Source: a virus. Taken from it: a stretch of DNA of 23,325 bases. The notes beneath the pieces were generated by a model. That model was not told the DNA's origin, searched no databases, and saw nothing but the letters and a program-made list of their open reading frames with translations. Positions 18,143 to 18,658 of this stretch are shown here, one piece after another (position 1 is the stretch's first letter; each line of letters starts with the position of its first letter). The stretch lies in IMG/VR virus record IMGVR_UViG_3300047551_001787, positions 1 to 23,325 of that record. One strand, written 5' to 3'. Both the position numbers and the translations under genes were made by a program.

Positions 18143-18171
18143 ATTTTACCATAAAAAAAGGAGGGGATCAA
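18143..18171 (-). promoter_or_regulatory. Sigma-70-type promoter overlapping a terminator
   Basis: On the minus strand TTGATC (18171-18166) and TAAAAT (18148-18143, preceded by TGG) are separated by 17 bases. The -35 box is the loop of the terminator at 18155-18179, and the spacer contains its T-run. It would serve the small genes and ThyX. Confidence 0.45.
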
Positions 18172-18179
18172 CCCCTCTT
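18155..18179 (-). terminator. Terminator of the riboswitch-controlled small-gene operon
   Basis: On the minus strand GAGGGG (18177-18172) pairs with CCCCTC (18166-18161) around a 5-nt loop, followed by C and a run of seven T. It lies 14 bases after the last small gene's stop codon (18193). Confidence 0.8.
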
Positions 18180-18192
18180 TAAAATCTTGCGA

Positions 18193-18276
18193 TTACTTAG
18201 AAATCCACTGAACGTACAGGGATAATAGTGTAATAAAAGTAGCAGATGCCACTGTAATTTGTGCGATGATTAACAT
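18193..18276 (-). CDS. 27-aa single-span membrane peptide
   Basis: The reading frame MLIIAQITVASATFITLLSL continues YVQWISK and stops with TAA. Residues ~2-22 form one hydrophobic transmembrane helix with a short C-terminal cytoplasmic or luminal tail (QWISK). Its start overlaps the previous gene's stop (TGATG) and AGGAG lies ~7 bases before it, so it is translated with the 31-aa gene. It resembles small photosystem or cytochrome b6f subunits only in size and topology; no named subunit matches. A membrane-protein regulator is possible. Confidence 0.65.
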   Translation of the reverse strand: MLIIAQITVASATFITLLSLYVQWISK

Positions 18277-18371
18277 CACTTTGCTCCTGCATTTACAAGC
18301 AATGCTTTATAACGACGATCTTCTTTTTGCTTTTGTTCTTTAATAAGTTGAAGGAAGTTTAGTTTTTTCAT
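18276..18371 (-). CDS. 31-aa basic hypothetical peptide
   Basis: The reading frame MKKLNFLQLIKEQKQKEDRR continues YKALLVNAGAK. It has a strong ribosome-binding site (AAGGAGG, ~9 bases upstream) that lies inside the end of the 45-aa gene, and its start is also within that gene's stop (ATGA). It is basic and helical with no recognisable family. The strong Shine-Dalgarno element and tight coupling on both sides argue that it is truly translated. Confidence 0.65.
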   Translation of the reverse strand: MKKLNFLQLIKEQKQKEDRRYKALLVNAGAK

Positions 18372-18505
18372 TTGTGCCCCTCCTTTACAAACTTAACCCC
18401 ACGATAGGTTTCGTTGTACTGTTGGGGTTGTTGCATCATCTGTTGTTGATATTCAATGCGTTTTTGAGTATCATACTCTACGCCTCTGTAAATAACTTTA
18501 GACAT
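18368..18505 (-). CDS. 45-aa YRG-repeat peptide (DUF4278-like), riboswitch-controlled
   Basis: The reading frame begins MSKVIYRGVEYDTQKRIEYQ and ends ETYRGVKFVKEGHK. Two YRGV phrases, VIYRGVEYD near the start and ETYRGVKFV near the end, flank a Gln-rich middle (QQQMMQQPQQ). Short proteins with paired YRG(V/A)xY motifs are the cyanobacterial DUF4278 group, of unknown function. GGAGG lies 9 bases before the ATG. It is the first gene after the glutamine riboswitch, the position of the 'downstream peptide' for which that RNA class was named. It probably acts in nitrogen-related host control, but that is inferred from the riboswitch only. Confidence 0.75.
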   Translation of the reverse strand: MSKVIYRGVEYDTQKRIEYQQQMMQQPQQYNETYRGVKFVKEGHK

Positions 18506-18538
18506 TAGGATTTTCCTCCAGATTGAGATGATTAGTCC

Positions 18539-18623
18539 CGTTCCTTTGGGCGGTTTGCATCCTTTTTGGGATCAACGAATCCGTTGCGCCGTCCTACTTG
18601 CGTCCAGTTTCCTGGATGAACGT
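18539..18623 (-). ncRNA. Glutamine riboswitch, Downstream-peptide / glnA class
   Basis: On the minus strand the RNA begins ACGTTCATCC (from 18623). CGTTC (18622-18618) pairs with GAACG (18543-18539) to close the domain (P1). TCCAG-GAAA-CTGGA (18616-18603) forms a GNRA-capped hairpin. The highly conserved GGACGCAAGTAGG lies at 18605-18593. Small stems fill the variable arm (CAACG/CGTTG, ATCC/GGAT, GGCG/CGCC), and AAAGGAACG closes it. Conserved order and spacing fit the glnA/Downstream-peptide glutamine aptamers of cyanobacteria and cyanophages. The predicted transcription start falls at its first base, and a small-peptide gene starts 34 bases after it. Ligand and direction of regulation are inferred from the class. 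Confidence 0.85.
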
Positions 18624-18629
18624 AAGGGT

Positions 18630-18658
18630 ATTATACCCTTGTTACGCATATTTAGCAA
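18630..18658 (-). promoter_or_regulatory. Sigma-70-type promoter of the riboswitch operon
   Basis: On the minus strand TTGCTA (18658-18653) and a perfect TATAAT (18635-18630) are separated by 17 bases. The -10 box is inside a palindrome, GGGTATAATACCC. The -35 box also contains CTAAATA, so late-type use is conceivable. The start would be near 18623, the first base of the riboswitch. Confidence 0.75.

Follow-up and report, generated by a model that had tools for sequence, protein, structure and literature searches.

Comparative evidence for an interlocked double glutamine aptamer ahead of a DUF4278-related gene in cyanophages

A short stretch of a viral record carries blocks of a glutamine aptamer on its minus strand, and it raises the question of whether these blocks make one riboswitch or two, and which genes such an RNA would control. 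The whole DNA analysed here, called the window, covers positions 1 to 23,325 of IMG/VR record IMGVR_UViG_3300047551_001787 (23,325 nucleotides). ThyX, PhoH and gp32 genes are present in this viral record and it is syntenic with cyanophage S-SRM01; on this basis the window is a T4-like cyanophage.

The original prediction had placed the element behind its own promoter, with the start site at the aptamer, ahead of three tiny genes and a terminator, and this layout was recovered. The sigma-70-like promoter TTGCTA-17-TATAAT was located at 18658-18630 with 10/12 matches, and CGTTC, the first aptamer bases, begins 7 nt past the -10 hexamer, so the RNA should start at or next to the aptamer. A -10 box was found 7-10 nt 5′ of CGTTC in 214/319 relatives. 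The ORFs of 45, 31 and 27 aa overlap one another and are followed by the terminator at 18177-18161, while a second terminator, at 18732-18712, ends the gene upstream and isolates the riboswitch unit. The phage origin and the control of a small operon by the element were likewise supported. A TAAATA late-promoter-like string (window 18645-18655) overlaps the -35 hexamer, and such strings occurred within 60 nt upstream in 131/319 composites, a hint that transcription may be early as well as late.

Identity of the aptamer and its two copies

All three conserved blocks quoted in the original prediction were found on the minus strand. When the whole window was searched with cmscan, RF01739 Glutamine was the sole Rfam match above cut-off (18535-18624 (-), 37.1 bits against a gathering cut-off of 35 bits, E 7.4e-5), in agreement with the class that had been proposed. 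The Downstream-peptide class, which had been named alongside it, did not hold, as its covariance model (RF01704, now Glutamine-II) gave no match at E 1 in the window. The element has a P1/P2/P3 junction with the conserved CGUUCA, GACGSAAGUA and AAGGAACG. RF01739 fits the window copy only with a 43-nt insert left in P3; this insert is the second aptamer unit, and the element proper therefore spans 18539-18622 (Table 1). An interlocked double architecture had not been part of the first reading.

The two copies are separated by 4 nt in the window and by 3-5 nt in relatives. Unit 1 contains GCAAGUARG and lacks GAAGG, while unit 2 lacks GUA and contains (G/A)AAGGAACG; since a canonical aptamer needs both the GUA and the GAAGG strand, one can be made only by joining the 5′ part of unit 1 to the 3′ part of unit 2. 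GUA and GAA presumably face each other in a loop E, one on either strand. A loop E is known in the glutamine riboswitch (PMC12510878). The 5′ half of copy 1 (P1 strand, P2a, GUA) and the 3′ half of copy 2 (GAAG, P1 strand) would thus build a canonical outer aptamer, and the cross-copy P3 would carry at its end a second aptamer-like module in circular permutation, formed by the inner P1 hairpin and P2b.

The alternative that survives best concerns this inner module: the outer aptamer would be the one working site, and the inner unit a structural cap left from duplication and binding nothing. In line with this, neither the GUA nor the GAAG strand is present in the inner junction, the inner core of the window has UGCAA where the others read CGCAA, a C to U change through which the second site may be weakened, and one relative (L135) has lost an inner P1 strand. 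However, hundreds of copies retain inner P1, CGUUCA, P2b and CGCAA, unpaired positions included, and we give the cap somewhat less than an even chance.

Table 1. Coordinates of the composite aptamer, its promoter and the genes below it in the window, with loci of nested ORFs in relatives
Feature	Position	Strand	Remarks
-35-like hexamer TTGCTA	18653..18658	(-)	consensus match only; overlaps late-like string GCTAAATA
-10 hexamer TATAAT	18630..18635	(-)	position conserved in relatives
Composite (interlocked double) glutamine aptamer, by comparison	18539..18622	(-)	RF01739 37.1 bits; held-out composite model R1 79.3 bits
Outer P1, 5′ strand CGUUC	18618..18622	(-)	
P2a hairpin UCCAG-GAAA-CUGGA	18603..18616	(-)	
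CGCAAGUA	18595..18602	(-)	includes GUA strand of presumed loop E
Shared P3, 5′ strand GGACGG	18589..18594	(-)	copy 1
Inner P1, strand CAACG	18582..18586	(-)	copy 1, 3′ end
Inner P1, strand CGUUG	18573..18577	(-)	copy 2, 5′ end
P2b hairpin UCC-CAAAAA-GGA	18560..18571	(-)	
Shared P3, 3′ strand CCGCCC	18548..18553	(-)	copy 2
AAAG (usually GAAG)	18544..18547	(-)	second strand of presumed loop E
Outer P1, 3′ strand GAACG	18539..18543	(-)	
Leader with Shine-Dalgarno GGAGG	18506..18538	(-)	
ORF1, 45 aa, twin-YRG protein related to DUF4278	18368..18505	(-)	PF14105 20.1 bits; phrog_5049 5.5e-10
ORF2, 31 aa, MKKLNFLQLIKEQKQKE...	18276..18371	(-)	overlaps ORF1 stop (ATGA)
ORF3, 27 aa, single hydrophobic segment	18193..18276	(-)	overlaps ORF2 stop (TGATG)
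Intrinsic terminator GAGGGG-UUGAU-CCCCUC then U-run	18161..18177	(-)	ends three-ORF unit
Nested-ORF loci (relatives)	L001 2646-2870; L002 2267-2480; L004; L597-L600		L001, S-SRM01; L002, DSL-LC02; L004, P-SSM2; also many IMG/VR loci

Pairing between the two copies

The two P3 strands sit in different units and covary, as in AGUCG/CGACU, AGUCA/UGACU, GGUCG/CGACU and GGACGG/CCGCCC; further cross-unit pairs of this kind were AGCCGACU/AGCCGACU, AGCCGACA/UGCCGACU and AGCCGACG/CGCCGACU, and the last P3 pair was U-A, A-U or G-C in sequences alike elsewhere. For a set of 64 distinct strand pairs, in which a parser flaw had added GCAA to some unit-2 strands, the cross-copy P3 reached -4.56 kcal/mol with its own partners as compared with -3.32 +/- 0.21 kcal/mol after shuffling; none of 2000 shuffles was as good (best -4.05), and local P3 hairpins within one copy gave about 0. 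When the composite structure was applied to 20 composites, 98.3% of cells were paired with 20 two-sided changes, against 92.7% and 4.0 in shuffles, and slid versions of the structure paired only 25-59% of cells.

The inner P1 also changed on both sides at once. When the search pattern fixed nothing but the outer part, 116 loci had GAACG/CGUUC, 3 had CAACG/CGUUG and none was mixed; over all loci in the set the counts were 323, 75 and 0, although several of the search patterns behind this larger count had fixed one form. The window has the CAACG/CGUUG form, and the swap was seen on three P3 backgrounds. Single host aptamers form their P1 from CGUUG/CAACG, so it can be taken as a genuine P1. Among the single glutamine aptamers collected from picocyanobacterial genomes (L587-L596), several have P1 CGUUG/CAACG instead of CGUUC/GAACG.

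A covariance model (R1) was trained on 20 GAACG-type composites with the window excluded, and it scored the window at 79.3 bits and Bellamy at 95.5 bits, whereas single host aptamers obtained 24-46 bits. One further locus (L534) does not differ from the window over 591 bases and was hence left out as independent evidence. Comparison across relatives shows, at the level of sequence, a pairing in which the two copies appear interlocked through one common P3, with both outer and inner P1 formed across the copies.

This pairing bears directly on the arrangement in which published doublets have been described, namely an independent tandem of two glutamine aptamers that both have a P1 of their own and act sequentially and pseudo-cooperatively. 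Doublet glutamine riboswitches are known and filed as such (PMC9481103, 157 doublets), and the P1 strands are identical in most phage copies, so that local P1s could form. On the other hand, the gap of 3-5 nt leaves no room there for an expression platform, a local P3 is impossible for either copy, each is without one loop-E strand, and P3 covaries between the copies. The CAACG/CGUUG class moreover breaks both local P1s; in the window, which belongs to it, independent pairing would leave C.C and G.G. The window thus has no local P3, two mismatched local P1s and a 4-nt gap without separate platforms, and independent tandem aptamers are improbable. For a kissing variant, with local P1s and a cross-copy P3, the inner-P1 swap is the sole ground of exclusion.

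Minimum-energy folding without constraints recovered no more than about half of the pairs of the composite. Least probable of all is a structured leader that does not sense glutamine but serves as a binding site for a protein of phage or host, or shields the mRNA: the low energetic preference for the fold would suit it, but the conserved blocks of a canonical aptamer are present in the outer unit, and the gene family under its control is that of proven glutamine switches (PMC6316151).

Distribution, downstream genes and nested genes

Pattern scans of IMG/VR returned at least 120 matches, and many of the listed contigs carried two aptamer units 3-5 nt apart. Among the loci listed, 371 composites were parsed, nearly all of them viral; this sampling was directed by patterns, so the frequencies, those of nested ORFs included, are no estimates, and some loci of the long-gap pattern were chance matches which the parsers excluded. 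In a collection of genomes from 84,980 species the double pattern was present in only 6 contigs; one of them equals a known viral contig in length, and the others are presumably phage contigs or contamination. In the 299 genomes of the order to which a Prochlorococcus single-cell genome belongs, it was found once, in that genome, while RF01739 matched in 74. Such rarity in genome collections makes the architecture essentially phage-borne as far as the patterns reach, diverged host versions being of a kind that they would miss. Six viral contigs (L041, L069, L070, L079, L113, L128) carry a single canonical aptamer, with its own P3 hairpin, before a different short gene.

A downstream ORF could be read in 315 of a subset of 325 composites, mostly 29-40 nt past the aptamer; almost all 315 encode the twin-YRG protein, with two YRG motifs, and the coupling of the RNA to YRG genes is thus a comparative result. 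ORF1 of the window scored 20.1 bits against DUF4278 (PF14105), below the cut-off of 25.3, while 12/14 representatives of the YRG family matched DUF4278 at E 0.01 (best 5e-7). We call ORF1 related to DUF4278 by sequence and not a member. Its nearest relatives in the phage collection are in S-SRM01 and DSL-LC02. Behind the YRG gene, many phage relatives have an ORF clearly related to ORF2. A hydrophobic single-span microprotein of 27-32 aa resembling ORF3 (window 18193-18276) was seen after the YRG gene in L237, L242, L264 and L272. In two marine phage contigs, two riboswitch-like RNAs lie close together: manA RNA (RF01745, 162-185 bits) directly follows the YRG gene under the glutamine riboswitch (L005 2680-2881, L009 2679-2876).

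In many composites a small ORF lies inside P2a, P2b or both, while the P2 loops of the window are short and hold no nested ORF. The arrangement was confirmed by reading the sequence of P-SSM2, Syn10, S-ShM2, S-SM2, ACG-2014g, S-SRM01 and DSL-LC02; in P-SSM2 the nested ORF is not annotated as a gene. Of 300 nested ORFs, with few exceptions, the ATG was 9-12 nt into the unit; lengths were about 49-79 aa, and the stop was usually at the aptamer edge or inside the aptamer. With a pN/pS of 0.26-0.32 they have the appearance of true genes kept by purifying selection. Their matches are PHROG 504 and 6471, two families of unknown function, and the P2b protein was found by tblastn in 309 phage records. 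Beside the nested ORF the P2 stem is conserved; its length exceeds that obtained with permuted partners (5.5 vs 4.2 and 5.8 vs 4.4 bp), and it often buries the start codon of that ORF. In L096 (-) 591-1230, a 196-aa ORF without Pfam match occupies the inner P1 loop and shows a GIY-YIG-like motif by eye (remnant in L053 3339-3480); it may represent the insertion of a homing endonuclease.

Nesting and buried start codons are seen in the relatives, and from them a wider reading may be drawn: a largely phage-specific two-site glutamine riboswitch, with canonical and circularly permuted aptamers on a common P3, in which the P2 loops serve as gene slots and glutamine switches nested and downstream genes oppositely. 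With glutamine bound, P2 would close over the nested microprotein's start codon, and the downstream DUF4278-like gene would be freed. We offer this reciprocal control of two genes tentatively and consider it rather unlikely as a whole; genes within riboswitch hairpins would be a new way of coupling translation and ligand sensing.

Proposed action and comparison with known systems

We consider it likely that the cyanophage element is a glutamine-I-type riboswitch forming one interlocked structure from two aptamer copies, with glutamine probably raising downstream translation. Transcription would begin at or next to the first aptamer base, and glutamine bound by at least the outer aptamer would most likely increase translation of the DUF4278-like protein; the output of ORF2 and ORF3 could be raised via translational coupling, and the protein would then act on, and perhaps tune, host nitrogen assimilation. 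The ligand is inferred along with this role. The ON direction and the translational level are those that host precedent makes probable: in cyanobacteria both glutamine riboswitch types activate expression with glutamine and are mainly tied to DUF4278 genes (PMC6316151). The glutamine synthetase inactivating factor IF17 has DUF4278 as its N-terminal part, which is dispensable for IF17 function (PMC6316151).

Several other devices were considered and not adopted. A transcriptional switch was dropped as no terminator lies between the aptamer and the ATG. An anti-Shine-Dalgarno in the aptamer 5′ strand of the window (UUCAUCCAG vs CUGGAGGAA) was suggestive by eye, but Shine-Dalgarno accessibility hardly changed, from 0.45 free to 0.49 with the aptamer folded, and it was raised in only 59/113 relatives. 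A leader hairpin, GGG after P1 with the pyrimidine run before the Shine-Dalgarno, gave no covariation signal. A link to the PII-binding protein PirA was also set aside, the PirA paper containing neither DUF4278 nor phages and PirA being reported absent from marine picocyanobacteria.

If the interlocked reading is right, phage tandem glutamine riboswitches are to be redrawn and retested as one interlocked device and not as two beads on a string. A widespread cyanophage RNA would be tied to a protein family that cyanobacteria keep under glutamine control, and this link makes phage manipulation of host nitrogen assimilation testable in P-SSM2, Syn10, S-ShM2 and S-PM2.

Phage and tandem glutamine riboswitches were already known (PMC9964418, PMC9004378, PMC2864571, PMC9481103). 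Our search covered the open-access literature, with subscription papers and preprints outside it, and found no description there of the interlocked fold, of a phage DUF4278 cassette or of intra-aptamer genes. As in the window, glutamine aptamers occur in the marine phages S-CREM1, Melnitz, Mosig and AG-345-P14 (PMC9964418, PMC9004378); the parts of these reports available to us contain no mention of interlocking, the YRG cassette or intra-aptamer ORFs.

Glutamine-II (RF01704) has CGUUCA/GGAACG and CGCA blocks and lies 5′ of short ORFs, as the window element does, but matches of its model were confined to weak ones in some phage relatives. The gifB/IF17 and DUF4278 genes of cyanobacteria (PMC6316151) share with the phages a glutamine riboswitch before a small DUF4278-type gene, whereas the phage protein is a 45-aa twin-YRG protein below the family cut-off. 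Glutamine-I (glnA RNA, RF01739) has P1, P2 and P3 at the same positions as the window and the same conserved CGUUCA, GACGSAAGUA and GAAGGAACG; its P3, however, ends in a small loop, while that of the window is common to a second, circularly permuted copy. The tandem pseudo-cooperative glutamine riboswitches (PMC9481103) likewise place two copies upstream of one ORF, whereas the copies in the window lie 4 nt apart, appear interlocked and have room for one expression platform only.
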